Of a stretch of DNA of 64,000 nt, positions 8,639-60,448 are shown piece by piece. The notes beneath the pieces are model-generated. The model did not search any database. It was not told the DNA's origin and saw only the letters and a list, made by a program, of their open reading frames with translations. Numbering within the stretch: position 1 is the first letter of the stretch; the number at the start of each line of letters is the position of its first letter. The DNA lies in NCBI RefSeq assembly GCF_017355365.1, contig NZ_JADIJR010000003.1, positions 62,001 to 126,000 of the forward strand, written 5' to 3'. Source of the stretch: Microbacterium sp. SD291 (GTDB lineage Bacteria > Actinomycetota > Actinomycetes > Actinomycetales > Microbacteriaceae). Position numbers and translations under genes: made by a program.

Positions 8639-8714
8639 GACACTCCTTGCACCGGGATGATGCCGGCCACGCCTCGGGTCGATCCGGAGCGGGCCGGTCA
8701 TCCCAGCGTACTGG

Positions 8715-10262
8715 TCAGTGCGAGGGCGTCTTGCGCAGTGTGACGCCGGCGATCGCCCCTGCCAGGATGACGAGCCCCGCCCCGATCAGCGAGGTCACCA
8801 TGACTCCGGAGCCGAAGGCCGCGGCCGCTGCATCCCACAGGTCGTCGCCCATCTTCCCCGGAAGCCCGTGGGCTGCCGTGTACGCGCCCGCGAGCGTCTC
8901 GCGCGCGGCGCGAGCAGCCTCGGCAGGGAGCCCGTCGGGCAGTGCCAGCGCCCCGCGGTAGAACGCGGTGATGATGCCGCCGAGGATCGCCGTGCCGAGC
9001 ACCGCCCCCAGCTCGTACGCGGTCTCGGAGACCGCACTCGCGGCTCCCGCCTTCTCGGCTGGCGCGCTGGAGAGGATCAGCTCGTTGGAGACCGTCTCCG
9101 CCGCGCCGATGCCGATGCCGAGTACGACGAACGCGATGACCAGCGGCGCGACCCCGTGCTCGGCCGACGTGAACGCGACCAGCAGGTATCCGGCGACGGA
9201 GAACACGAGAGCCGAAGGCACGAGCACGGAGGGCGCGACCCGGCGCGAGATCGGCACGACCGCGAGCCCGGCCACGATCATCGCCGCCATGCCCGGCACG
9301 AGCGCGAAGCCCGCCACCATCGGGGTGAGGCCGAGCACGAGCTGCAGGTGCTGGGAGACGAAGTAGAGGAATCCGACCAGCGCGACGACGCTCAGCAGGT
9401 TCACCAGGATCGCGCCCGAGAAGGAGCCGCGGCGGAAAAGCGCCATGTCGAGCATCGGGATGTCGGCGCGCAGCTGGCGCCGGACGAACAGCACGCCCAT
9501 CAGGGTGCCGAGAACCGCCCACCCGGCAGCGGCCGGCGACGGACCCTCGGTCGCCAGCGACTTGATGGCGTAGACGACGGGGATCATCGCCGCCATCGAG
9601 AGCAGGATGCTGATCGGGTCGATGCGACCGGGCTTCGGGTCCCGGCTCTCCGGCACCAGCAGCGGTGCACAGATCAGCAGCGGGATCAGCACCGGCACTG
9701 CGACGAGGAACACCGAGCCCCAGGCGAAGTGCTCGAGCAGGAATCCGCCGACGATCGGGCCGAGGGCGGAACCGGCGGAGAAGCCGGCGGCCCACACCGC
9801 GATGGCCAGGCGCCGCTGGTCTCTGTTCCGGAAGATCGAGCGCAGCAGCGAGAGCGTCGAGGGCATCAGCATCGCGCCGAAGAATCCGAGGAGCGCTCGA
9901 GCCGTGATGAGCAGGGCGGCCGTCGGCGCGAACGCCGCGAGCACGGACACGGCCGCGAAGCCGGTCGCGCCGATCAGCAGCATCCGTCGCCGTCCGAATC
10001 GGTCGCCGAGGGTGCCCATGGTCACGAGGAGTCCCGCGAGCACGAGCGGATACACGTCGATGATCCACAGCTGCTCGGCGCCGGACGGCGCGAGCGCGAT
10101 GGAGATCTCGGGCAGCGCGAAGCTCAGCACCGTGTTGTCCACCGACACCAGAAGAACCGGCAGCATCAGGACGACGAGTGCCGCCCAGCCACGCGCTCCC
10201 ACGCGGGGAGCATTCGTCTCGTCATCGGCGACGGTCGCGGGAATCGACGCAGTGCGCGTCAT
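8715..10262 (-). CDS. DHA2-type MFS multidrug efflux pump
   Basis: A 515-residue protein with about 14 predicted helices, the arrangement of drug:H+ antiporter-2 pumps (QacA, EmrB, LfrA type). [17 protein letters not shown] in helix 1 (the family motif D1 region), [14 protein letters not shown] after helix 2 and [16 protein letters not shown] in helix 5 (antiporter motif C) are all visible. It is divergent from a TetR regulator with a 63-nt spacer carrying a palindromic operator, so it is probably repressed by that TetR until a toxic ligand appears. The actual drug range is unknown. Confidence 0.93.
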
Positions 10263-10292
10263 GGAACACCTCTCAGGATCGTGGCGGCCTCA

Positions 10293-10320
10293 TTACTGAA
10301 CCGTCCGGATGGTATAGTAA
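10293..10320. promoter_or_regulatory. Probable TetR operator overlapping divergent promoters
   Basis: A 28-nt interrupted palindrome: matched blocks TTACT, ACC, CCGG, GGT and AGTAA appear in order with 2-nt unmatched steps between them (20 of 28 positions symmetric). It includes TATAGT (10313-10318), which ends 7 nt before the regulator's ATG and should be its -10 box (leaderless). It also covers the likely promoter of the pump gene in the other direction. One bound repressor dimer could shut off both genes. Confidence 0.75.
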
Positions 10321-10325
10321 CAGAC

Positions 10326-10880
10326 ATGCCCCGACCTCCACTCGCCCGCGAACGCGTACTCGACGCATTCGAGTCCATCGTGATCGCCGAAGGCGAGCGC
10401 ACTGCGACCCTGGATGCGACCGCCAAGGCGGCAGGCGTCTCCAAGGGCGGGCTCCTCTATCACTTCGGATCCAAGGACGAGCTGGCCGCCGGGCTGCTGG
10501 AGCGCCTGGACGCCCTCACCACCGCGGATCTGGAGCGCATGGCATCCGCAGAGGAGGGCCCGGTCGCCTACTACATCCGCACGTCCGTGATGGAGGACGA
10601 TGCGCTGGATCGCGCGCTGATCGCCGCGTCTCGACTCGCGCAGGGCGGATCCGCCGCCGCCGCAGAGATGCTTCGTCACGTGCGTCGCCGGTGGGAGGAC
10701 GCGATCCGCCCGCACGTGCGGGATGCCGCCGGCCTCGACCTCGTGATGCTGCTCAGCGACGGCCTCTACTTCAACAACTCGCTCGACGTGCACGGGCCGG
10801 AGCGCCTGGTCCCGCGCCGCGAGGAGCTGGCCGACCTCATCGCGCTCGTGCTGCGCTCCACCACGCCGGACAGCGCTTAG
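10326..10880 (+). CDS. TetR/AcrR-family regulator of the adjacent efflux pump
   Basis: A 184-residue one-component repressor. The N-terminal helix-turn-helix (about residues 25-50) reads TLDATAKAAGVSKGGLLYHF, followed by SKDELAAGLLERLD. The C-terminal half is a variable ligand-binding helical domain. The ATG at 10326 has no Shine-Dalgarno but sits 7 nt after TATAGT, so the mRNA is probably leaderless. It is divergent from the DHA2 pump, and the palindrome in its own promoter implies autoregulation plus control of the pump. Ligand unknown. Confidence 0.92.
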   Translation: MPRPPLARERVLDAFESIVIAEGERTATLDATAKAAGVSKGGLLYHFGSKDELAAGLLERLDALTTADLERMASAEEGPVAYYIRTSVMEDDALDRALIAASRLAQGGSAAAAEMLRHVRRRWEDAIRPHVRDAAGLDLVMLLSDGLYFNNSLDVHGPERLVPRREELADLIALVLRSTTPDSA

Positions 10881-10941: not shown

Positions 10942-12546
10942 TCAGACCTCGGTGAGCTCGATCTGACGGAACAGGTCGGCGTCGATCGCGGTGCGGACGT
11001 CGTCGAGCAGGTCCTCGGAGACCGGCGAGTCGAGCGTCAGCACACTGAGCGCCTGGTCCCCCGCGGCGAGGCGGCCGATCTGCATGCCGGCGATGTTGAT
11101 TCCGGCCTCGCCGAACTTCTGGCCGTAGACGGCGACGATGCCCGGGCGGTCGGTGTAGAGCATCACGACGTGGTGCTTCTCGATCGGCAGCTCGAGCGCG
11201 TGGTCGTTGATGCCGACGAGCTTCTCGGTCTGCTTCGGACCGGTCAGGGTGCCCGACACCGCGAGCTGCGAGCCGTCAGACAGCGCGCCGCGCAGGGTGA
11301 TCACGTTGCGGTACTCGTCGCTCACGTCATCCTTCAGCAGTCGCACCGCGATGCCGCGCTGGTCGGCGAGCAGCGGCGCGTTCACGTACGACACGGTCTC
11401 GCTGACGATGTTCGTGAAGACGCCCTTGAGCGCGGCCAGCTTCAGCACGCTCACGTCGTACTCGTTCAGCTCGCCATGCACCTCGACGTCGAGGCTGGTG
11501 AGGGGCGAGGTGGCGAGTGCCGAGAAGATCTGACCGAGCTTCTCGACCAGGGAGATGCCGGGGCGGACGTACGGGTCGATGATGCCGCCTGCGACGTTCA
11601 CGGCATCCGGGACCAGGTCGCCGCCGAGCGCGAGGCGCACGGAGCGGGCGACCGAGACGCCTGCCTTCTCCTGCGCCTCCTCGGTGCTGGCGCCGAGGTG
11701 CGGCGTCACGACCACGTTCGGCAGATCGAGCAGCGCGCGAGCGGTGCCGCCCTCGGCCGGGGGCTCGGACGTGAACACGTCGAGACCTGCGCCGGCGATC
11801 TCACCCGCGACCAGCGCCTCGTAGAGCGCAGCCTCGTCGATCAGGCCGCCGCGAGCGACGTTCACGACATAGGAGGTCGGCTTCATCGCCCGGAACTGCT
11901 CGGCGCCGAGCATCCCGGTCGTCTCCGGGGTCTTCGGCATGTGGATGGTGATGAAGTCGGATTCGGCGGCGAGCTCGTCGAGCGACAGCAGCTGCACGCC
12001 GAGCTGCTGGGCGCGAGCGGAGGTCACATAGGGGTCGTAGGCGACGACGCGCATGTCGAACGCGGCGAGGCGGGCTGCGACGAGGGCGCCGATGCGGCCG
12101 AGCCCGATGATGCCCACGGTCTTCTCGAAGAGCTCCGCGCCCGTGAAGGAGCTCCGCTTCCATTGCCCTGCCGCCAGCGACGCGTGTGCCGCGGGGATGC
12201 GGCGGGCGAGGCTGAGGATGTGGCCGACCGTGAGCTCGGCGGCCGAGACGATGTTGGAGGTCGGCGCGTTGACGACCATGACGCCGGCGGCGGTGGCCGC
12301 CTTGATGTCGACGTTGTCCAGGCCCACGCCCGCACGGGCGACGACCTTCAGCTTCGGGGCGTGGGTCAGCGCCTCCTCGTCGATGCGGGTCGCCGAGCGG
12401 ATCAGCACTGCGTCCGCGTCGGCGAGCGACGCGAACAGGGCCTCGCGGTCGGTCCCGTCGACGTTGCGCACGTCGAAGTCGGGCCCGAGGGCCTCGATCG
12501 TGGCGGGGGAGAGAACTTCGGCGATGAGCACGACGGGCTTCGGCAC
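10942..12546 (-). CDS. serA: D-3-phosphoglycerate dehydrogenase
   Basis: First step of serine synthesis. The 534-residue protein is the long actinobacterial form: substrate domain, NAD-binding Rossmann domain (KTVGIIGLGRIGALVAARL; then DFITIHMPKTPETTGMLG), intervening domain from about residue 320, and a C-terminal ACT domain (HHVVMLYTDRPGIVAVYG) for serine feedback. The catalytic VTPHLGAS His motif is visible. The start is GTG at 12546 (VPKPVVLIAEVL), supported by GAAGGAT upstream; the frame extends further but without homology-like sequence. It converges with the TetR gene across a strong hairpin. Confidence 0.96.
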   Translation of the reverse strand: MPKPVVLIAEVLSPATIEALGPDFDVRNVDGTDREALFASLADADAVLIRSATRIDEEALTHAPKLKVVARAGVGLDNVDIKAATAAGVMVVNAPTSNIVSAAELTVGHILSLARRIPAAHASLAAGQWKRSSFTGAELFEKTVGIIGLGRIGALVAARLAAFDMRVVAYDPYVTSARAQQLGVQLLSLDELAAESDFITIHMPKTPETTGMLGAEQFRAMKPTSYVVNVARGGLIDEAALYEALVAGEIAGAGLDVFTSEPPAEGGTARALLDLPNVVVTPHLGASTEEAQEKAGVSVARSVRLALGGDLVPDAVNVAGGIIDPYVRPGISLVEKLGQIFSALATSPLTSLDVEVHGELNEYDVSVLKLAALKGVFTNIVSETVSYVNAPLLADQRGIAVRLLKDDVSDEYRNVITLRGALSDGSQLAVSGTLTGPKQTEKLVGINDHALELPIEKHHVVMLYTDRPGIVAVYGQKFGEAGINIAGMQIGRLAAGDQALSVLTLDSPVSEDLLDDVRTAIDADLFRQIELTEV

Positions 12547-12668
12547 AGTGGATCCTTCGGGGCAGCACGACAGGCGGGAGGGGCCGATGCGCCGCACACC
12601 GTCGGGGGCGCGATCACCTCAACTGTACCCGAGTGGTTCCGCTGCTCCGTGCCGTGTGACGACTGGAG

Positions 12669-13022
12669 TCAGGTGGCGATCGTCACCAGCTGGTCCATGT
12701 TCAGGATGCTGTAGCCGATCAGGCTCAGCCAGAACACCGCGACGATGCCGAGACCTGCCAGCAGCGCGAGCGACAGCTCGCCGACCTTCCGGCGCCGCCC
12801 GATCAGGTATGCGAAGACGAAGACGATCGCGGGGAAGACGACGCCGAAGAGCAGTGTCGCCCAGCCTGCGCCGGTGAGCCCGCCCTGTGCCATCGAGACG
12901 AGGTGGGCGACCGCGTTCCAGATCGCATATGCGTAGAAGAGCCCGGCGAGGCCGAGCACGAACCCGACGAGCCACCGCGGGGAGCCAGCGGACACGGACG
13001 CCGTACCGGTCGTCTCACTCAT
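12669..13022 (-). CDS. Small three-helix membrane protein, unknown
   Basis: A 117-residue protein with three predicted transmembrane helices (WLVGFVLGLAGLFYAYAIW, WATLLFGVVFPAIVFVFAYLI, LALLAGLGIVAVFWLSLIGYSI) and a short Ser/Thr-rich N-terminus beginning MSETTGTAS. The ATG at 13022 overlaps the stop of the upstream gene by 4 nt (ATGA), so the two are translationally coupled. No family recognised. A role together with the upstream membrane protein is inferred from coupling only. Confidence 0.8.
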   Translation of the reverse strand: MSETTGTASVSAGSPRWLVGFVLGLAGLFYAYAIWNAVAHLVSMAQGGLTGAGWATLLFGVVFPAIVFVFAYLIGRRRKVGELSLALLAGLGIVAVFWLSLIGYSILNMDQLVTIAT

Positions 13023-13483
13023 GATCCGATCACTCCCACCGTCACGAAGGGCCAGGGCACCAGCAGCACGACGCCGAGCAGCAGAACCGACAGCCGGATC
13101 CAGGCCGCACGGCCCCGGGTGAGCACCCAGCCTGCCAGGAACCACAGCGCGGGGGCCGCGACCGCCAGCACGAACCACGGGACGTACATGGCATCCGCGA
13201 CGATCAGGTTGGCGAGCGGCTTGAGCCGGAGCCCGCCCACGACCCAGCCGACGCTGTAGAGCAGATAGATCCCGCCGACGATCCCGAGTGTCAGCAGCAG
13301 CGCGGTGCTCGTCGGCCCGCGGTCCTCCCCCGCAGGCGCGGTGACCGTGCCGTCATCCGCGATCCTGCCGACCTTCTCGCTGCCCTTGCCGACGGCGTTC
13401 CAGCCGCCGGGCAGCGCAGGATCCTTCGGGGTCGCCCCCTCGTCACCATCCCAGTTCAGGGCGTCGTCGGAATCGGAGCTCAT
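13019..13483 (-). CDS. Small membrane protein, unknown
   Basis: A 154-residue protein with an acidic N-terminal segment (MSSDSDDALNWDGDEGATP, about 60 residues soluble) and three predicted helices (LLLTLGIVGGIYLLYSVGW, WFVLAVAAPALWFLAGWVL, LSVLLLGVVLLVPWPFVTVGV). The ATG at 13483 follows TACGCT by 6 nt, the leaderless pattern; an earlier in-frame ATG at 13540 would lie upstream of that promoter. It overlaps the next gene by 4 nt. I do not recognise the family. Confidence 0.8.
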   Translation of the reverse strand: MSSDSDDALNWDGDEGATPKDPALPGGWNAVGKGSEKVGRIADDGTVTAPAGEDRGPTSTALLLTLGIVGGIYLLYSVGWVVGGLRLKPLANLIVADAMYVPWFVLAVAAPALWFLAGWVLTRGRAAWIRLSVLLLGVVLLVPWPFVTVGVIGS

Positions 13484-26553: not shown

Positions 26554-27201
26554 TCAGTTCTCGAGCTCTGCGGCGATGCGCAGCGGCGGCTCCGTGGCCG
26601 CGACGACCTGCTCGACGGTCACGCCCGGTGCCGTCTCCACGAGCATCAGCCCGTCGGCGGTGACGTCGATCACCGCGAGATCGGTGATGATCCGGTCGAC
26701 CACGCCTCGGCCGGTGAGCGGCAGCGAGCACTGATCGACGATCTTCGCGGTGCCGTCCTTGGCGACATGCTCCATCAGCACGATCACCCGCGCGGCGCCG
26801 TGGACGAGGTCCATGGCGCCACCGGGCCCCTTGACCATCTTCCCCGGGATCATCCAGTTCGCGAGGTCGCCGCCCGCCGACACCTGCATCGCACCGAGGA
26901 TCGCCGCGTCGATCTTGCCGCCACGGATCATCCCGAAGCTCGTCGCCGAGTCGAAGAAGGCGGAGCCTGGCAGCGTGGTGACCGTCTCCTTGCCCGCGTT
27001 GATGAGGTCGGGGTCGACCGCATCCTCGCGGGGATAGGGGCCGACGCCGAGGATCCCGTTCTCCGACTGGAGCACGACGGTGACGCCCGCTGGCACGTGG
27101 TTCGGAACGAGGGTGGGCAGGCCGATGCCGAGGTTCACGTAGGCGCCGTCCTGCAGTTCCGCGGCGGCGCGTGCCGCCATCTGGTCTCTGGTGAGCGCCA
27201 T
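26554..27201 (-). CDS. scoB: 3-oxoacid CoA-transferase subunit B
   Basis: A 215-residue beta subunit of a family I CoA-transferase (succinyl-CoA:acetoacetate type). It carries the catalytic Glu in [11 protein letters not shown], preceded by [17 protein letters not shown], and later [19 protein letters not shown]. The ATG at 27201 follows GGAGCCTGAG and begins 1 nt past the alpha-subunit stop, so the subunits are translated together. It acts with the alpha subunit to activate a 3-oxo acid for the thiolase downstream. The substrate could also be 3-oxoadipate. Confidence 0.92.
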
Positions 27202-27202
27202 C

Positions 27203-27994
27203 TCAGGCTCCTTCCGTGGCGGCGGCGGCGTCTGCGGAGACGGTGCGCCGCTCGATGCGCTTGGGGATGTCGGTGCCCACCTCGACGATGCGGTGCACAT
27301 ACACGCCCGGGAGATGGACGCGGTCGGGGTCCAGCTCGCCGGGCTCGACCAGCCGCTCCACCTGGGCGATGCAGATCCGCCCCGCCATGGCGGCGAGCGG
27401 GTTGAAGTTGCGCGCCGCCTTGTTGAAGATCAGGTTGCCGTGCCGGTCTCCCGCGGCGGCGTGGACGAGTGCGTAGTCCGTGGTGATCGCCTCCTCGAGC
27501 ACGAATTCCCTGGGAGCGCCGTTCACGTCGAACGTCCGCACATCCTTCACGGAAGACGCCACCGCGATCGATCCGTCGGCGTTGTAGCGGCGAGGCAGCC
27601 CACCCTCCGCGACCTGCGTGCCGACCCCGGTCTGGGTGAAGAAGGCTGCGATGCCGGAGCCGCCGGCGCGGAGCTTCTCGGCGAGGGTGCCCTGCGGCGT
27701 GAGCTCGAGCTCGAGCTCACCCGAGAGGAACTGACGCTCGAACTCCTTGTTCTCACCGACGTACGAGGAGGTCATCTTCCGGATCCTCTGGGCCGCCAGC
27801 AGGATGCCGAGGCCCCAGTCGTCGACACCGCAGTTGTTGCTGACGATGCTGAGATCCCTCGTGCCCTGCGCGAGCAGCGCCTCGATGAGGGCGATCGGGT
27901 TTCCGGAGAGGCCGAATCCGCCTACCGCGAGGGATGACCCGTCGGCGATGTCGGCGACCGCGTCGGCCGCTGAAGCCCATTGCTTGTCGATCAC
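27203..27994 (-). CDS. scoA: 3-oxoacid CoA-transferase subunit A
   Basis: A 263-residue alpha subunit of the CoA-transferase. The N-terminus [33 protein letters not shown] carries the CoA-binding GGFG-x-x-G-x-P motif; [12 protein letters not shown] and [17 protein letters not shown] follow as in the family. Start choice: GTG 27994 has AAGGAG 5 nt upstream and matches the normal length, while the ATG at 28036 adds 14 residues without support. First gene of the scoA-scoB-thiolase operon, divergent from the IclR regulator. Confidence 0.92.
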
Positions 27995-28098
27995 GAGTGC
28001 TCCTTCGAAGTCGTGCGTCCCTCCAGCATCCGTCATCTCGTCGCCCGCAGGAAGCCGGGTCTTGCGATGTGGGCGATCATCCGCGTACCGTCCACATT

Positions 28099-28887
28099 AT
28101 GGAACCAGCTACCCGCATCGTCCCCGGCGCGCAGGCGATCGCGCGTGCCGCGCACCTCCTCCGGCTCGTCACGGCCGCAGGGGCGAGCGGCGCGACGCTG
28201 CAGGAGCTGTCGACGTCTGCGGGGCTCTCCCGCTCGACCGCTCATCGGCTGCTGAGCGCACTGAAGGCGGAGGGTCTCGTCGACAGGGACGGCGAGAGCG
28301 GCAGATGGATGCCGGGCCCGGAGCTCTTCCTGATGGGGACCGTGGCGGCGGCGCGCTATGACGTCACCGCGCTCGCACGGGACATCGTGCGGTCACTGGC
28401 GGTGAAGACCGAGGAGAGCGCGTTCTTCTCCGTGCGACGAGCCGATGAGACCGTCTGCCTGCTGCGCGAGGAGGGGTCGTTCCCGATCCGGTCGTTCGTG
28501 CTCAGTGAGGGCGTGCGATTCCCGCTCGGCGTCGCGAGCGCCGGCCTCGCGATCCTTGCCTTCCTGCCTGACCACGATGTGGATGCCTACCTCGAGCGCC
28601 ATCCTGAGATCGAGCAGCGGTGGGGCAGGCAGCACGGCGGGGCCGCGCTGCGCGCACGGCTGTCCGAGACCAAGGAGCGCGGCTACGCGGTCAACCCGGG
28701 TCTGATCGTCGAGGGCAGCTGGGGAATCGGCGCCGCGGTGTTCGACCGGTCGGGCCGCCCTGAGTGGGCGCTGAGCCTCACCGGGGTCGAGTTCCGCTTC
28801 GGACCGGACCGGATCGCCGACCTCGGCCGCACGCTCCTCGCGCACGCGCATCAGCTCTCGGCGCGGATCGCAGCCGCGCGGCGGTGA
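28099..28887 (+). CDS. IclR-family regulator
   Basis: A 262-residue regulator with an N-terminal winged helix (about residues 10-70; LQELSTSAGLSRSTAHRLLSALKAEGLVDRD) and a C-terminal IclR ligand domain (SVRRADETVCLLREEGSFPIRSFV; LGVASAGLAILAFLPDHDV; ERGYAVNPG). The ATG at 28099 follows TACCGT by 7 nt, a leaderless start; the frame continues upstream without a start signal. It is divergent from scoA across 104 nt and so is the probable regulator of the CoA-transferase/thiolase operon, sensing a 3-oxo acid or related metabolite (inference). Confidence 0.9.
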   Translation: MEPATRIVPGAQAIARAAHLLRLVTAAGASGATLQELSTSAGLSRSTAHRLLSALKAEGLVDRDGESGRWMPGPELFLMGTVAAARYDVTALARDIVRSLAVKTEESAFFSVRRADETVCLLREEGSFPIRSFVLSEGVRFPLGVASAGLAILAFLPDHDVDAYLERHPEIEQRWGRQHGGAALRARLSETKERGYAVNPGLIVEGSWGIGAAVFDRSGRPEWALSLTGVEFRFGPDRIADLGRTLLAHAHQLSARIAAARR

Positions 28888-48171: not shown

Positions 48172-49218
48172 TCAGGCCGGGCGACGCTCGGCGAGCTCGT
48201 CGGCCGGGGCCGCAGCCACCGCTCCGCCGATGCCGAGCTTCTGCTTGATCTGGGTCTCGATCGCCAGCGCGATGTCAGGGTTCTTGAGGAGGAAGTTACG
48301 CGCGTTCTCCTTGCCCTGCCCCAGCTGATCGCCGTCGTAGGTGTACCAGGAACCCGACTTCTTGACGATGCCGTGATCGACGCCGAAGTCGATCAGGCTG
48401 CCCTCGCGAGAGATGCCGATGCCGTACAGGATGTCGAACTCGGCCTGTTTGAACGGCGGAGCCATCTTGTTCTTGACGACCTTGACGCGCGTGCGGTTTC
48501 CGACGGCGTCCGTGCCGTCCTTGAGCGTCTCGATGCGCCGGATGTCCATGCGCACCGACGCGTAGAACTTCAGCGCCTTACCACCGGCCGTCGTCTCGGG
48601 AGAGCCGAAGAACACGCCGATCTTCTCGCGCAGCTGGTTGATGAAGATCATCGTGGTGTTGGTCTGGTTCAGCCCACCGGTCAGCTTTCGCAGCGCCTGC
48701 GACATCAGTCGCGCCTGCAGGCCGACGTGAGAGTCGCCCATCTCTCCCTCGATCTCGGCCCGGGGCACGAGAGCGGCGACGGAGTCGATGACGATGAGGT
48801 CGATGGCACCGGAGCGCACCAGCATGTCGGCGATCTCGAGTGCCTGCTCACCCGTGTCGGGCTGGGAGACGAGAAGGGCGTCGATGTCGACGCCGAGCTT
48901 CGCGGCATAGTCAGGGTCGAGTGCGTGCTCCGCGTCGATGAACGCCGCGATGCCGCCGGCACGCTGCGCATTCGCGATCGCGTGCAGCGTCAGCGTCGTC
49001 TTGCCGGACGACTCGGGTCCGTAGATCTCCACGATGCGGCCACGCGGGAGTCCGCCGACGCCGAGTGCGACGTCGAGTGCGATGGAGCCGGTCGGGATGA
49101 CCGCGACGGGTGCGCGCTCGTCGCTGCCCAGCCGCATGACCGAGCCCTTTCCGAACTGGCGGTCGATCTGGGCGAGTGCTGTCTCGAGGGACTTCTCGCG
49201 GTCTGCGGGTGATGGCAT
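48172..49218 (-). CDS. recA: Recombinase RecA
   Basis: A 348-residue DNA recombinase and SOS co-protease. Walker A is [18 protein letters not shown], Walker [13 protein letters not shown], with the L2-region signature [18 protein letters not shown]. Full length with the typical C-terminal acidic/basic tail. The ATG at 49218 is preceded by AAGGAG. A near-consensus LexA box (49416-49431) and a TATTCT -10 (49402-49407) lie in the 266-nt upstream region, so SOS induction is expected. Followed by recX. Confidence 0.98.
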
Positions 49219-49401
49219 GACGTGCTCCTTATGCTCGAGTGGTGCCGCCTGTAGGCTGTCGCGGTCCTCCCGGCTGGGCGGAACTCTCCGACAAGGCGTA
49301 TGGCTCTTTCGGCCTGTTCTTCACCGTACGAGGCACCTCGGACATTGCGTCTTCGGGGCCGGGAACTGTGCAGCACATGCTCGCCGAACCACTTGTGCAG
49401 A

Positions 49402-49709: not shown

Positions 49710-49724
49710 GGATCAGCGGATGCG

Positions 49725-50033
49725 TCAGCGCAGCGACAGCTCGGGCTCGATGGAGGCCACGAGGTCGTCCGGCACGACGTCCGGGAAGACCTGGATGCCC
49801 TCGATCACCGAGATGCGGTCGCCGACCTCGCGCATGATCGTCGAGATGGGGACGTCGAGTGCGTCGGCGACGGAAGCGAGGATCTCGCTCGATGCCTCCT
49901 TCTGACCGCGCTCGACCTCACTGAGGTACCCGAGCGCCACAGAGGCCCTGCTCGCGACCTGTCGGAGCGTACGGCCCTTCTGCAGACGGAAGTCCCTCAG
50001 CACATCGCCGATTTCCTGTCGTACGAGAATCAT
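49725..50033 (-). CDS. clgR: ClgR-type helix-turn-helix regulator
   Basis: A 102-residue regulator matching actinobacterial ClgR, activator of clp protease and other stress genes. The Cro/C1-type HTH is visible in LRDFRLQKGRTLRQVASRASVALGYLSEVERGQKEASSEILASV. The C-terminus DDLVASIEPELSLR is short and would be the site of ClpP-dependent degradation in relatives. The 141-nt AT-rich region upstream carries a perfect inverted repeat (50127-50147), a possible ClgR site for autoregulation. Next to cinA and pgsA, the usual location. Confidence 0.88.
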   Translation of the reverse strand: MILVRQEIGDVLRDFRLQKGRTLRQVASRASVALGYLSEVERGQKEASSEILASVADALDVPISTIMREVGDRISVIEGIQVFPDVVPDDLVASIEPELSLR

Positions 50034-50126
50034 CGGAACCTCCTCCCAGGTCGTCCGCCCGAGGTCTCCCCCGATCGGATGGCCAGTTTAGTCCTTCTGA
50101 CCTTCACAGAATCTACCTTTTCACTC

Positions 50127-50147
50127 TGTGCTTTCGTTGTGAGCACA
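50127..50147. promoter_or_regulatory. Inverted repeat upstream of clgR
   Basis: TGTGCT and AGCACA arms flank a 9-nt spacer (TTCGTTGTG) in the AT-rich clgR promoter region. Candidate operator for ClgR itself or another stress regulator. The match to published ClgR motifs is only partial. Confidence 0.5.
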
Positions 50148-50174
50148 TTTATGACAACGGCGGCCCGTGCCTGA

Positions 50175-50657
50175 CTATTCCCCGAGCAGATCCAGCAGCG
50201 TCCTGAAGGCCGCGTCGACCGACTGCGCCCTGATCTGCGCACGATCCCCCGTGAACGCGAACGCCCGGCTCACGGATTTCTCCGGTGTGACGGCGCCGAT
50301 GTGCACGGTGCCCACGGGCTGTCCGTCCGGCGAGTCGGGACCCGCGATGCCCGTCGTCGAGACGCCGACGTCGGCGTAGCGTCCGTCGACCGCGACGGCA
50401 CCCCTGATCCCGTGCGCCATCTGCAGCGCGACCAGCGGATGCACCGGCCCGTGCGCCTCCAGCAGGCCGGCATCCACGCCGAGGAGCGTGTGCTTGACCG
50501 GCGTGGCGTATGCCACGACGCCGCCGAGCAGCACCGCGGATGCGCCGGAGACCGTCACCAGCTCGGCGCTGACCGCACCTCCGGTGAGCGACTCGGCTAC
50601 GCCGAGCGTCCACCCGCGAGCGCCGAGAGCTGCGAGCAGATCGGCTGCCGCGCTCAC
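50175..50657 (-). CDS. cinA: CinA C-terminal domain nicotinamide-nucleotide amidohydrolase
   Basis: A 160-residue stand-alone CinA C-terminal domain: LGVAESLTGGAVSAELVTVSGASAVLLGGVVAYATPVKHTLLGV, followed by GVSTTGIAGPDSPDGQPVGTVHIG. It deamidates nicotinamide mononucleotide in the pyridine-nucleotide salvage cycle; the N-terminal competence-type domain is absent, which is common. The GTG start at 50657 overlaps the pgsA stop by 4 nt (GTGA). Confidence 0.93.
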   Translation of the reverse strand: MSAAADLLAALGARGWTLGVAESLTGGAVSAELVTVSGASAVLLGGVVAYATPVKHTLLGVDAGLLEAHGPVHPLVALQMAHGIRGAVAVDGRYADVGVSTTGIAGPDSPDGQPVGTVHIGAVTPEKSVSRAFAFTGDRAQIRAQSVDAAFRTLLDLLGE

Positions 50658-51229
50658 GGCCGCTGCCGGGACCCGCGAACCTGGGCGACGATGTAGTCGA
50701 CTCCGCTCGCGACGGTGAGCACGAGCACGGCGATCATGAGCACACCGGTGACCAGGACCCAGAGATCGAGCCCGATGAGCAGATACAGCGGCAGCAGCGC
50801 CCAGGAGAGGGCGACAGCCTGCACAGTGGTCTTGACCTTGCCCATCCACGCGGCCGCGACGACGTGCTCCTTCGCGACCATCAGCCGATGGACGGTGATG
50901 CCCCATTCGCGCACCAGGACGATCACGACGAGCCACCAGTTCAGCTCGCCGAGCACCGCCAGTCCGATGAATCCGGCGCCGGTGAGCAGCTTGTCGGCGA
51001 TCGGATCCCACAGCTTGCCGAAGTCGCTGACGATGTCGAACCTGCGGGCGAGGTAGCCGTCGACCCAGTCGGTCGATATCGCGACGATGAAGAGGATGGC
51101 CGCGGCCCACCGGAGTCCGACGCTCTCCTCCCCGTAGGTCCCTCCGAGCAGCAGAAGGACGAAGAAGACGACGGCGAGCGGGATGCGGGCGACCGTGATC
51201 GCGTTGGGCAGCTGACGCGGGATGGCCAT
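50654..51229 (-). CDS. pgsA: CDP-diacylglycerol--glycerol-3-phosphate 3-phosphatidyltransferase
   Basis: Makes phosphatidylglycerol phosphate, a membrane enzyme of 191 residues with several helices. The CDP-alcohol phosphotransferase motif D-G-x2-A-R-x8-G-x3-D-x3-D is complete in DWVDGYLARRFDIVSDFGKL followed by WDPIAD. The ATG overlaps the ftsK stop by 1 nt. It is in the conserved ftsK-pgsA-cinA order. Confidence 0.95.
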   Translation of the reverse strand: MAIPRQLPNAITVARIPLAVVFFVLLLLGGTYGEESVGLRWAAAILFIVAISTDWVDGYLARRFDIVSDFGKLWDPIADKLLTGAGFIGLAVLGELNWWLVVIVLVREWGITVHRLMVAKEHVVAAAWMGKVKTTVQAVALSWALLPLYLLIGLDLWVLVTGVLMIAVLVLTVASGVDYIVAQVRGSRQRP

Positions 51230-53943
51230 CAGTCGCGCCCCGTCAGTCCCCAGGCGTCTTCGTCACCCTCGGCCTCGACCTCCGGGAGGCCCTCGAACTG
51301 AGCCTCCACAGGATCGTGCGCCGGAGCAGCCGCCGCGGGTGCCGGGGTGCTCGGCGTGTCGCCGCGGAGCTTGGCCATGACCTGGGGCAGCTGCTCGGGC
51401 GTGGCGAGCACGTCACGCGCCTTCGATCCTTCGGACGGGCCGACGATCTCACGCGACTCGAGCAGATCCATCAGGCGCCCGGCCTTCGCGAACCCGACGC
51501 GGAGCTTGCGCTGCAGCATCGAGGTCGATCCGAACTGCGACGACACGATCAGCTCCGCCGCCGCAAGCAGGAGCTCGAGGTCGTCGCCGATGTCCTCGTC
51601 GACCTCCTTCTTCCTGGCCGGCTCCATGGCCTCCTGCACGTCAGAGCGGTACTCCGGTCGCGCCTGGCGGGTGACGTGCTTGACGACGGCGTCGATCTCC
51701 TTCTCGTCGACCCACGCGCCCTGCAGGCGGAACGGCTTCGACGAGCCCATCGGCGAGAACAGGGCGTCGCCCTGACCGATCAGCTTGTCGGCGCCAGGGC
51801 TGTCGAGGATGACGCGGCTGTCGGTGACGCTGGTCACGGCGAACGCGAGACGAGAGGGCACGTTCGCCTTGATCAGGCCGGTCACGACGTCGACGCTCGG
51901 ACGCTGCGTCGCCAGCACCAGGTGGATGCCGGATGCGCGGGCGAGCTGGGTGATGCGCACGATCGAGTCCTCGACGTCGCGCGGGGCGACCATCATGAGG
52001 TCGGCGAGCTCGTCGACGACCACGAGGAGATAGGGGTACGGCTTGAGCACGCGCTCGCTGCCCACCGGAAGGTCCACCTCGCCGGCCCTGACCGCCCGGT
52101 TGAAGTCGTCGATGTGCCGGAAGCCGAACGACGCGAGGTCGTCGTACCTCATGTCCATCTCCTTCACGACCCACTGCAGCGCCTCGGCCGCCTTCTTCGG
52201 GTTCGTGATGATGGGCGTGATCAGGTGCGGCACGCCGGCGTAGCTGGTGAGCTCCACGCGCTTCGGGTCGATCAGCACCATCCGCACATCGGCGGGGCGG
52301 GCGCGCATGAGCAGGCTCGTGATCATCGAGTTCACGAAGCTGGACTTGCCCGAGCCGGTGGAACCCGCCACGAGCAGGTGGGGCATCTTGGCGAGGTTGG
52401 CGATCACGATGTTGCCGCCGACGTCCTTGCCGACGCCGATGGTCATCGGATGGGTGCTCTTCTGCGCCGCCTGCGACCGCAGCACGTCCCCGAGCGCCAC
52501 CATCTCCTTGTCGGCGTTCGGGATCTCGATGCCGATAGCGCTCTTGCCGGGGATCGGCGAGAGGATGCGCACGTCGTTCGATGCGACGGCATAGGCGAAG
52601 TTGTTGCTGAGCTGCAGGATCTTCTCGACCTTGACGCCGTGGCCGACCTCGACCTCGTACTGGGTGACCGTCGGGCCCCGCGAGAAGCCGGTGACCTTCG
52701 CGTCGACCTTGAACTGCGTCAGCACGCTGGTGATCTGCTCGATCACCCGGTCGGTCGCCTCGGAGCGCATCACCGGCGCCGGGCCCTCGACGAGCAGGTC
52801 GGTCGGCGGCAGCAGGTACGGCGCGACGGGCGCCTGCGGCCCCCGCTCCCCCGGCCCCTCGGTGCCGAACCCGTCGAGCCCCGGGAGCTCGGGCATCTCG
52901 CCGGTGTCCGACTCGTCGTCGAGGAGCGCCGTGCTCTGCTGCTCCGCCAGCGCGTCCGTGACGGCGCGCACGTCCGACAGGACCTCGGTCGCGGCGTCGT
53001 ACGGGTCGGCGACGATGACGGCCTGGTCGTAGGCGGGTGTCGCGTCGGCCGTGGTGAGGAGCGCCGTGATGTCGTCGGAGCCGAGGTTCCCCTCGTCCGG
53101 GTCCTCTTCGCGTCCGGTCTTGTTGCGACGCCACCAGGGCAGCACGTCCGGGTCGTCGACCTTGTCGGCGTCATCGACGGCGACGGCATCCTTCGCCGGC
53201 TTCTCCGGCCGCTCCGCGTCGAACATCCACGCGTACAGGTCGCCCAGTCGCTGCCCGATGCGGTTCGGCGGGGTCTTCGTGAGGATCAGGATGCTGAGCG
53301 CCGCGAGCAGCGCCAGCACGATGTAGGCGCCGACCGGCGTCAGGTACGACAGCGGCTCGCCGACCATCCAGCCGAAGAGACCGCCCGCCTCGCTGAGCGC
53401 GAGCATGCCCTGCTTCGGCTGCGCTCGCACCAGGTCACCGGACGAGTCCGCGTGCCCGGCTGCGATGTGGCAGAAACCGGCCAGCGTGAGGATGAACAGC
53501 CCGAAGCCGATGCCGATCCGCCCGTTGTCATGCACGGAGGACGGATGCCGGAACAGCCAGCCTGCGAGCAGCAGGAGCAGCACCGGCATCACGAAGGCGA
53601 CGCGGCCGACGAGTCCCCCGACCGAGTAGGCGCTGATGTTCGCCGCGACCTCGTTGCCGATGAAGAACCACTCGTCCACCGCGCCGGCGGCGGCCAGCAG
53701 CACGAGCAGGAACGGGAAGCCGTCTCTGCGGTCGTCCTTCTCGAGGGTCTCCGGCCCGAACGCGCGGAAGAGCCCGCCGACGCCGTGAGCGAGGCCACCC
53801 CAGGCGCGAACCGCCACCGGGGGCCTGTCGATCTCGTCGATGTACTTCTTCGGCGCGGCCTGAGCCTTCGGCGCTGCCTGCCGCTTCGGGCGAGGCGAAG
53901 CGCTCTCGGACGCGCGCGCAGATCTCGTGGTGCTCCTGGCCAT
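51229..53943 (-). CDS. ftsK: DNA translocase FtsK/SpoIIIE
   Basis: A 904-residue septal DNA pump that clears chromosomes at division. The order is: basic N-terminus, about four transmembrane helices (about residues 80-230), acidic linker (about 240-370), motor domain with Walker [16 protein letters not shown] and Walker [14 protein letters not shown], and the C-terminal winged-helix gamma domain ([29 protein letters not shown]) for KOPS reading. The ATG at 53943 follows TAACGT by 6 nt (leaderless). Confidence 0.97.
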
Positions 53944-54011
53944 GCCCTCACGTTACGCCGAACAGCCGACGAAGCCGCGTAATGACGCGGCTTTCCGCGG
54001 ATCCGGCGGTC

Positions 54012-54506
54012 TCAGGAGAGCCTGTGGACCATGGTGTCGCGCGCGGCCCCGGTCTCCACCACGGCAAATCCCTCAGACCGGTACAGGAGTCTCGCGAAGT
54101 TGTCCCGCTCCACACTCAGGCTGATCCGGGGATGCCCCCGTTCGCGCGCGTGCACGAGCAGCCGGCGCAGGAGCGTCCGGCCGACTCCGTGGGCGCGCCA
54201 GATCGGCTGGACGCCGATGATCAGCTCAGGCACCGCCGTGCCCACGAACCCGAAGCCGGGTTCGCTGCGCGGCAGCATCCGGTACCAGGCCGCACCGACC
54301 GGGAGTCCCTCTGCATCCACCGCGACGAAGCCGGCATCGGCAGGGCGCATCCACCCCGTGAGGTAGCGCCGGTGCTCGGCGTCGGCGAGGATCTCGTGCC
54401 GCACCCGCACGGAGCCCGCGCGCCAGTTGGCCGCCTCGACCACCATCTCGCCGAGGAAGCTCCCGTCTTCCTGCGTCGCAGGACGGATCTAGAAGGGCTC
54501 CGACAT
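54012..54506 (-). pseudogene. GNAT acetyltransferase interrupted by an in-frame amber codon
   Basis: From ATG 54506 the frame reads M-S-E-P-F, then TAG at 54489-54491, then IRPATQEDGSFLGEMVVEAA and on through a normal acetyltransferase (VQPIWRAHGVGRTLLRRLLVHARERG is motif A; LLYRSEGFAVVETGA the end). IRPAT followed by the VVEAANW helix is the usual GNAT N-terminus, so the TAG breaks a 164-codon gene at codon 6. TAGGCT lies 6 nt before this ATG, so the mRNA probably starts at it. Translation could reinitiate at ATG 54446, giving 144 residues that lack strand beta1. May be a pseudogene, a sequencing error, or readthrough. Confidence 0.8.
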
Positions 54507-54512
54507 GCGAGG

Positions 54513-54518
54513 AGCCTA
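54513..54518 (-). promoter_or_regulatory. -10 box of the interrupted GNAT gene
   Basis: TAGGCT on the minus strand ends 6 nt before ATG 54506, the leaderless arrangement seen repeatedly in this window. It marks that ATG, rather than the internal one at 54446, as the ancestral start. Confidence 0.6.
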
Positions 54519-54565
54519 GGGCACGGCGATTACGGGGATGTGTCCCCCGGCTGTGAGCCGAGGGG

Positions 54566-56242
54566 TCACGCCTCGATCACGAGGGGGACGATCATCGGAC
54601 GACGGCGCAGCTTCTGGTTGACCCAGCGGCCGATGGTGCGTCGCACGACCTGCGAGAGCGCGTGCGTGTCGTGCACGCCGTTGCCCGAGGCCTCCTTGAG
54701 AGCCGCGATGATCTTCGGCACCACGTCGTCGAACACCGAGTCGTCCTCGGCGATGCCGCGGGCGTGGATCTCCGGTCCGCTGATGATCCGGCCGGTGCCC
54801 GCGTCGACGACGACGATCACCGAGACGAACCCCTCCTCGCCCAGGATCCGGCGATCCTTGAGGTCGGCATCCGTGATCTCGCCGACGGTGGAGCCGTCGA
54901 CGTACACGAAGCCGAGGTCCAGCTGCCCTACGACGCGCGCCTCGCCGTCGTTGAGGTCGATCACGGTGCCGTTGGATCCGATGAACGTCCGCTCGGCCGG
55001 GATCCCGGTGTCCTGCGCGAGCCTGGCGTTGGCCATCAGGTGACGGTACTCGCCGTGCACGGGGAGCACGTTCTTGGGCTTCAGGATGTTGTAGCAGTAG
55101 ATCAGCTCGCCTGCCGCGGCGTGACCGGAGACGTGCACCTTGGCGTTCGCCTTGTGCACGACGTTCGCGCCGAGCTTCGTGAGACCGTCGATCACGCGGT
55201 AGACCGCGTTCTCGTTGCCGGGGATGAGGCTGGACGCCAGGATCACCGTGTCGCCGGGACCTGGCTCGATCGCGTGGTCGAGGTTGGCCATCCGGCTGAG
55301 CACTGCCATCGGCTCGCCCTGTGACCCGGTGGACATGTAGACGATCTGATCGTCAGGAAGGTCGCGCGCCTTCTTGTAGTCGATGAGCAGCCCCTCGGGC
55401 ACCTTCAGATAGCCGAGGTCCTCGGCGATCGTCATGTTGCGCAGCATGCTGCGACCGAGGAGGGCCACGCGGCGGCCGTGCGCCGCGGCGGCATCCAGAA
55501 CCTGCTGCACCCGGTGCACGTGGCTGGAGAAGCTCGCGACGATCACCCGGCGGGGTGCCTTCCCGATCACCTGGTCCAGGACAGGGCCGATCGACCGCTC
55601 GGTGGGGGTGAAGCCCGGCACGTCGGCGTTCGTGGAGTCGACCAGGAAGAGGTCGACTCCTTCTTCGCCGAGGCGCGAGAACGCGCGGAGGTCGGTGATC
55701 CGGCCGTCGAGCGGCAACTGGTCCATCTTGAAGTCGCCGGTGGCGAGCACCATGCCGGCGGGCGTCCGGATCGCGACGGCGAGGGCGTCCGGGATCGAGT
55801 GGTTGACCGCGACGAACTCGAGGTCGAACGGGCCGACCTGCTCGCGCTGCCCCTCCTTCACCGTGAGCGTGAAGGCCTTGATCCGGTGCTCCTTGAGCTT
55901 CGCCTCGACGAGCGCGAGCGTGAGCCCGGAACCGATCAGCGGGATGTCGCTCTTCAGCCGGAGCAGGTATGGCACTGCGCCGATGTGGTCCTCGTGGCCG
56001 TGTGTGAGGACCACGCCGACGATGTCGTCCAGACGGTTCTTGATCGGCTCGAAGTCGGGCAGGATCAGGTCGACGCCGGGCTGGTGCTCCTCCGGGAAGA
56101 GGACGCCGCAGTCGACGATCAGGATCTTCCCGGCGAACTCGAACATCGTCATGTTCCGGCCGATCTCGCCGAGGCCGCCGAGCGGCGTGACGCGCAGGGT
56201 CCCCTCTTCGAGCGCTGCGGGATCTGCGATGGGGAATGACAT
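54566..56242 (-). CDS. rnj: Ribonuclease J
   Basis: A 558-residue metallo-beta-lactamase/beta-CASP RNase with endo- and 5'-exonuclease activity in mRNA decay and rRNA maturation. GGLGEIGRNMTMFE, the zinc motif VVLTHGHEDHIGA, ATGDFKMDQLP, STGSQGEPMAVLSRMA and VHVSGHAAAGEL are present in order. The C-terminal domain follows. It lies 68 nt downstream of dapA on the same strand, a very common actinobacterial pair. Confidence 0.96.
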   Translation of the reverse strand: MSFPIADPAALEEGTLRVTPLGGLGEIGRNMTMFEFAGKILIVDCGVLFPEEHQPGVDLILPDFEPIKNRLDDIVGVVLTHGHEDHIGAVPYLLRLKSDIPLIGSGLTLALVEAKLKEHRIKAFTLTVKEGQREQVGPFDLEFVAVNHSIPDALAVAIRTPAGMVLATGDFKMDQLPLDGRITDLRAFSRLGEEGVDLFLVDSTNADVPGFTPTERSIGPVLDQVIGKAPRRVIVASFSSHVHRVQQVLDAAAAHGRRVALLGRSMLRNMTIAEDLGYLKVPEGLLIDYKKARDLPDDQIVYMSTGSQGEPMAVLSRMANLDHAIEPGPGDTVILASSLIPGNENAVYRVIDGLTKLGANVVHKANAKVHVSGHAAAGELIYCYNILKPKNVLPVHGEYRHLMANARLAQDTGIPAERTFIGSNGTVIDLNDGEARVVGQLDLGFVYVDGSTVGEITDADLKDRRILGEEGFVSVIVVVDAGTGRIISGPEIHARGIAEDDSVFDDVVPKIIAALKEASGNGVHDTHALSQVVRRTIGRWVNQKLRRRPMIVPLVIEA

Positions 56243-59417: not shown

Positions 59418-59512
59418 GACTGCCAGACTACCCGGCGCCGACGGCATCCGGCCGTTCGTCATCATGTGAAACATCGGCCCCGGCATCTCTCCGCCGGACG
59501 TACTCTCGACCC

Positions 59513-59926
59513 ATGTCGCCCGTACTCGCCCTGTCCTTCGCCGCAGCGCTCCTGGTGCTGGCAGTGGTGGCCGGCGTGGTTCTGCGGCTCCTCGACGGCC
59601 GGCGAAGGGGCGGCGGTCACCTCCGGTTCGATCCGGCGGACGCCTCGGCCACAGTGCTCGGAGAGCGGGCGACCCTCGTGCAGTTCAGCACCGAGATGTG
59701 CGCGCGCTGCCCTCAGGTGAGGCGGATGCTGAACGACTACGCCTCCGATCATGACGGGCTCGCCCACGTCGAGGTCGATCTGACGCACCGCCCCGAGCTC
59801 TCGGCCAGGTACAGGGTGCTGTCGACCCCCACCACGTTCGTCGTCGACGGCTCCGGCGCCGTGCGCGCACGTTTTCACGGCGTGCCGCACCGGCACGCCC
59901 TCACCGAGGCACTCGCAGCCGTCTGA
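59513..59926 (+). CDS. Membrane-anchored thioredoxin-like protein
   Basis: A 137-residue protein with an N-terminal helix ([23 protein letters not shown]) and a thioredoxin fold containing the dithiol CARC in [19 protein letters not shown], and the cis-Pro loop [14 protein letters not shown]. The catalytic domain may face either side depending on topology; the positive residues after the helix favour cytoplasm. The ATG at 59513 follows TACTCT by 6 nt. First of three plus-strand genes with redox-type Cys (thioredoxin, DUF4395, OsmC). Confidence 0.88.
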
Positions 59927-59947
59927 GCCGCGAAGACTGGAGCAGAG

Positions 59948-60448
59948 ATGACCCCTCCCGCCGGCATCGACCCACGCGGCCCGCGCTTCGCGGCCACGAT
60001 CACCGCGATCCTGCTGCTGTTCGCGACGTTCCTCGCGCTGATCGGGAGTTCGGCGAATGCGGCCTCCGCTTCCCTCGCGCAGCGAGTCCTCGACCCCGGG
60101 TTCCTTCTCGCGGTCGTGATCGCTGCGCTCTTCCTCTGGAGCGTGACCTCCCCCGCGACCGCACCGTGGGGTGCGCTGTTCCGCAGCGCGATCCGCCCGC
60201 GCCTCACGCCGCCGGACGAGCTCGAGGACCCGCGTCCGCCGCGCTTCGCCCAGGGTGTGGGGCTTCTCGTCGTCGGAATCGGCATCGTCCTGCACCTGAT
60301 CGGCGTCCCGTGGGCGCTGCCGATCGCGACGGCCGCGGCCTTCATCGCCGCGTTCCTGAACGCCGCATTCGCGTTCTGCCTCGGCTGCCAGATCTACCTG
60401 CTGCTGCAGCGAGCGGGGATCGTCGGGCGCGACACCTCGGCGGCCTGA
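59948..60448 (+). CDS. DUF4395 membrane protein
   Basis: A 166-residue protein with about four transmembrane helices (FAATITAILLLFATFLALIG, FLLAVVIAALFLWSV, GVGLLVVGIGIVLHLIG, ATAAAFIAAFLNAAFAFCLG) and the DUF4395 signature PRGPRFAA near the N-terminus. The Cys pair in FAFCLGCQIYLLL at the membrane surface resembles a redox dithiol. It lies 21 nt after the thioredoxin-like gene, a recurrent actinobacterial pair, suggesting the two exchange electrons across the membrane (inference). Confidence 0.88.
   Translation: MTPPAGIDPRGPRFAATITAILLLFATFLALIGSSANAASASLAQRVLDPGFLLAVVIAALFLWSVTSPATAPWGALFRSAIRPRLTPPDELEDPRPPRFAQGVGLLVVGIGIVLHLIGVPWALPIATAAAFIAAFLNAAFAFCLGCQIYLLLQRAGIVGRDTSAA

Follow-up and report, generated by a model that had tools for sequence, protein, structure and literature searches.

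A predicted leaderless GNAT acetyltransferase gene with an amber codon at its sixth position in Microbacterium sp. SD291

Pseudogenes that arise from a recent single-base nonsense change are a known kind in bacterial genomes. A GNAT-family N-acetyltransferase gene of Microbacterium sp. SD291 resembles them, in that one in-frame stop interrupts an otherwise constrained and apparently dispensable gene whose orthologues in related species are intact. It differs from them in the position of the stop, which comes within six codons of the start in a gene whose promoter looks leaderless, so that almost nothing would be translated, and in being known here from the assembly alone. A literature search on nonsense pseudogenes in Microbacterium returned nothing on the subject.

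The gene also compares with two other described systems. Its likeness to the GNAT superfamily (PF00583) lies in the modelled fold of an intact orthologue and in solved relatives that align from residue 5, of which 12jc_A, a thialysine acetyltransferase, and 2fe7_A are the nearest by sequence; in contrast to the superfamily, translation in the window stops before the fold begins. With the leaderless, TA-led genes of Actinobacteria, for which the accessible part of one report describes a TANNNT rule (PMC3160421), it shares a box at a fixed 6-7 nt from the start and an almost complete lack of Shine-Dalgarno-like cores, and no difference from the account in that part was seen.

The locus is most simply explained by an ordinary recent nonsense lesion or by a consensus error. 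The reading we prefer, and consider probable, is that a dispensable leaderless GNAT gene between rnj and ftsK lost all or nearly all of its function in this strain or species through a very recent single-base nonsense change. Ribosomes would make a five-residue peptide and then stop, and little or no acetyltransferase would be produced. A recent lesion is supported by the uniqueness of the stop, the intact relatives, the conserved promoter box, the lack of accumulated decay, and the loss or frameshifting of the gene in some relatives. A preliminary description of this DNA had offered four readings; a newly dead gene and an assembly error are retained as likely, with evidence that fits both, while reinitiation and amber readthrough are disfavoured. 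The probabilities that we attach to the four are judgements rather than computed values. The locus may serve mostly as a calibration case: by comparison, this premature stop in a draft sequence appears private to the genome and either very young or erroneous.

The gene and its promoter

The gene lies in a 64,000-nt stretch of DNA, called the window here, from a 3.53-Mb draft genome of 88 contigs. Its minus-strand frame reads M-S-E-P-F from ATG 54506, then TAG, then IRPATQEDGSFLGEMVVEAANWR..., and remains open to 54012 (Table 1). This frame, with an intact GNAT protein behind the stop, had been proposed in the preliminary description and is confirmed by the sequence, its translation and Pfam. 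The part past the stop matches PF00583 at 38.7 bits, against a cut-off of 20.7, as well as PF13508 and PF13673; all five NCBIfam matches of the gene were below their cut-offs. The PF00583 match is confined to the portion downstream of the stop, and a complete GNAT fold from strand beta1 is not translated under the standard code, which stops at codon 6, where beta1 begins. The same description had placed the stop and the second methionine (54446) correctly, but it was wrong to speak of peptides before residue 26, as the second methionine is residue 21. Met21 is the only ATG restart candidate near the start of the gene.

Table 1. Window coordinates of the GNAT gene, its signals and its neighbours
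Feature	Position	Strand	Remark
GNAT-family N-acetyltransferase gene	54012..54506	minus	from ATG 54506; in-frame TAG is codon 6, otherwise open
Start ATG of the GNAT gene	54506-54504	minus	from the sequence
In-frame TAG, codon 6	54489..54491	minus	a sense codon at each of the other 115 distinct loci, serine in most nearest relatives
Second in-frame ATG (Met21)	54444..54446	minus	codon 21, 42 nt past the stop, inside helix alpha1; Met in 115 of 115 loci
TAGGCT, -10 (TANNNT) box	54513..54518	minus	6 nt (CCTCGC) before the ATG; conserved leaderless promoter by comparison
GTAAT, an instance of the GTAA[CT] motif	54529..54533	minus	in 58 of 112 loci the motif starts 15 nt upstream of the -10 box
Upstream neighbour (rnj)	54566..56242	minus	taken from its sequence to be a ribonuclease J type protein
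Downstream neighbour (ftsK)	51229..53943	minus	taken from its sequence to be an FtsK/SpoIIIE-type DNA translocase

The model of an intact orthologue (L033) has a GNAT fold, with a mean pLDDT of 89.2 and a pTM of 0.86, and its top fold match is 2j8m_A (PA4866). The 50 fold matches listed consist of acetyltransferases, and most are GNAT enzymes that act on various substrates; because their identity is low (14-24%), no substrate can be assigned to the gene.

The gene start was aligned across 166 matched loci, which gave 116 distinct sequences (window included) from 165 loci, the omitted locus (L070) having its upstream region cut off. One frameshifted locus (L010, from genome G166) was left out of the counts of the promoter, the GTAA[CT] motif, codons 7-20 and Met21, and out of the conserved-column and dN/dS tests. 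In 112 of the remaining 115 loci, a TANNNT box ends 6 nt (94 loci) or 7 nt (18 loci) before the start codon, whereas shuffled upstream sequences have a box at 6-7 nt in a mean of 2.5 loci and a maximum of 7 (200 shuffles). A Shine-Dalgarno-like core occurs in just one of the 115, and the GNAT gene of the window itself has the box at this distance. The comparison strongly supports the earlier suggestion that TAGGCT, ending 6 nt before the ATG, is part of a leaderless promoter; transcription would then begin at or adjacent to the ATG. A useful by-product of the analysis is the tightly conserved, predicted leaderless promoter of a small GNAT gene. A standard two-hexamer sigma-70 scan, which demands both hexamers, found no site at this locus, a point that counts against the recent-lesion reading.

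Upstream of the box, the GTAA[CT] motif begins 16 nt before it in one locus, and no spacing other than 15 or 16 nt was seen; a normal -35 element would stand farther away than 15 nt. In some species the motif coincides with the rnj stop codon. A strict pattern of GTAAC, 10 nt, TANNNT, 6 nt and ATG had no match in the SD291 genome. It is worth mentioning that TAACGT, followed by 6 nt (GAGGGC) and ATG 53943 on the minus strand (window 53944-53955), was seen by eye upstream of ftsK, which may have the same leaderless arrangement.

Codon 6 among relatives and in the assembly

A stop at codon 6 is present in one of the 116 distinct orthologous loci, namely the window. Elsewhere the position holds Ser (41), Arg (41), Pro (17), Thr (6), Ala (5), Gln (2), Leu (2) or Gly (1); the Arg count takes in L010, which is read out of frame in this tally and, in its correct frame, encodes serine there. 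Among the 19 nearest other sequences (identity at least 74.6%, L010 apart), 18 have TCG (Ser), one base away from TAG, and the remaining one has ACG (Thr). The intact protein of the related genome G274 was also searched against 366 genomes of the genus; among the 150 matches listed, only the one in the SD291 genome holds a stop ("1 TAG"). In both surveys, then, the in-frame stop is absent from the intact orthologues, as in a nonsense pseudogene. The best-matching other genome is only 80% identical over a 1-kb region, the searches for related genomes showed no second assembly of the species, and records near the SD291 genome may be absent from the relatives search; as far as examined, the stop appears private to this genome.

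The start of the gene does not seem to have been misplaced. In all 115 loci tested, an Ile/Val/Leu-Arg motif follows a short N terminus that begins with ATG or GTG, the search being confined to the stretch 4 to 7 codons before the motif. This N terminus, together with the sense codon at position 6 across relatives, indicates that the family normally includes the residues before Met21, and we reject both a wrong start codon and a family beginning at Met21. Homologues without the residues before the second methionine, which the preliminary description had named as grounds for abandoning its claim, were sought, and none was found among the loci tested.

That one base separates codon 6 from the codon of most near relatives, in a gene that looks fully constrained and in an 88-contig draft, would suit a sequencing or assembly error, with the gene intact in the living strain. 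Indeed, a single-base consensus error would give a picture identical to that of a recent lesion. We regard such an error as possible but doubtful, since substitution errors are rare in draft consensus sequences, the TAG base is not in a homopolymer run, and the window holds no other credible internal stop among its matched open reading frames (ORFs).

The last point comes from a comparison of the window with the related region of G274, which gave 50 non-overlapping matched ORFs, some of which are not genes. Six of the 50 alignments hold a stop, and the GNAT gene has the only credible internal one. The stops in 10945-12750 and 48175-49350 were judged to lie ahead of the real start, and 12705-13361, 26557-27507 and 49719-50276 were judged to be out-of-frame or antisense ORFs; the basis for these judgements was the identity before and after the stop and the presence of overlapping, better matches rather than a gene caller. 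In four of the 50 matches the alignment is divided between frames. One pair of these (59510-60445) resolves to two intact neighbouring plus-strand genes, and in the other two (8664-10868 and 28033-28860) the weaker pieces overlap better matches on the opposite strand. Since the GNAT stop alone is credible, a generally poor, error-ridden consensus in the window is not the explanation; a single error remains compatible with these data.

Production of a protein despite the stop

The amber codon might be read through to give the full-length protein at a useful level, as the preliminary description had suggested. The constraint on the gene body is the only observation in favour of this. None of the 45 tRNA genes found in the genome has the anticodon CUA, which would read UAG, and a general amber suppressor is rejected on this count. 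Nor is there a sign of a conserved recoding signal, as the same position is a sense codon in every one of the 115 other distinct loci. We consider readthrough extremely improbable.

An N-truncated protein might instead be made by reinitiation at Met21 after termination at codon 6, also an earlier suggestion. Met21 is in frame, 42 nt past the stop, it is methionine in all 115 loci tested, and the gene body is constrained. However, its conservation needs no role as a restart site, because it lies within a helix and all 115 loci have an upstream ATG or GTG, so that none depends on Met21 as its first start. In the L033 model, strand beta1 comprises residues 6-9 and helix alpha1 residues 12-27; a product started at Met21, in the middle of alpha1, would lose beta1 and nine of the sixteen alpha1 residues. 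By eye, the 30 nt before Met21 contain no TANNNT box and no Shine-Dalgarno core at the usual spacing, and reinitiation this distant from a stop is usually weak where a Shine-Dalgarno sequence is lacking. On these grounds reinitiation is improbable.

A more specific form of this idea, which we hold to be very improbable, is that a six-codon mini-ORF, running from AUG to UAG, is present on the leaderless transcript, after which the ribosome reinitiates at Met21 and a shortened GNAT protein is made in the species of SD291. If true, what was once the beginning of an acetyltransferase would now act as a translational attenuator. A literature search on leaderless reinitiation after premature stops gave no lead among the matches listed.

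Dispensability of the gene and age of the stop

The accumulation of changes in the gene was compared with that in its orthologues. Identity filters dropped four more of the 115 sequences, so that 111 were kept in the conserved-column and dN/dS tests; for dN/dS these comprised 20 near and 88 outgroup sequences, and three intermediate ones were unused. There are 63 columns in which at least 95% of the other sequences agree; the window differs in one of these (D20E), and 100 of the 111 sequences differ in 0 or 1. The median pairwise dN/dS of the window to its 19 near relatives is 0.147, and the medians of the other near sequences among themselves range from 0.09 to 0.20. Measured against the 88 outgroup sequences, the window has a median dN of 0.226, among the lowest values in the near group, whose range is 0.222 to 0.278.

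These results show no clear excess of amino-acid change of the kind that relaxed constraint would leave in a pseudogene, in a test that is blunt because synonymous sites are near saturation (median dS to the near relatives about 1.0). If the gene is dead, its death was therefore probably recent, and a consensus error fits equally well. The stop is very young or an error.

Several points weigh against reading the constraint as evidence for the recent lesion. A protein that is still made would leave the gene just as free of decay, and the bluntness of the test at this dS also counts here. Furthermore, in comparisons with its near relatives the window has a median dN of 0.139, which ranks in the group's upper half (0.084 to 0.165 for the others). 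The ratio of divergence in codons 7-20 to that in the rest of the gene is 1.02 in the window, the highest of the 20 near sequences; the next two are at 0.99, and this margin is too small to be read as a signal of extra divergence.

The gene looks dispensable, to judge from its distribution, because it is absent between rnj and ftsK in four genomes and frameshifted in two other species. In many Microbacterium species it is flanked by these two genes: 73 of 80 named loci have rnj within 600 nt on one side and ftsK within 900 nt on the other. Among the other seven, three are missing one neighbour from the stored sequence, and in four extra DNA is present on one side. In the four loci without the gene (L138, L139, L140 and L142), 87 to 105 nt separate the aligned rnj and ftsK ends. 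A further locus without the gene (L141), from another genus of the order, has rnj but only a weak, distant ftsK match, and was not counted among the four. No match to the G274 protein at E 1e-10 was found in 134 of the 366 genomes of the genus, some of which are incomplete.

As for the frameshifts, the G166 orthologue (L010 / L160, in a single-contig genome) carries one additional base within a run of C at codons 9-10, which is either a second lesion within the first ten codons or a homopolymer error. The G136 orthologue matches in two different frames, around codon 120. Either frameshift could itself be a sequencing error.

No close second copy of the gene was seen in the SD291 genome, as there was one match at E 1e-10 and a DNA search gave just a 25-nt second match. 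The plasmid collection gave no match, and PADLOC reported no families. In the course of these comparisons we noticed two records, titled Stenotrophomonas maltophilia P13 (L089) and Planococcus sp. APC 4015 (L074), that hold a GNAT locus between rnj and ftsK; because this locus is of the Microbacterium type, both records look contaminated or mislabelled.
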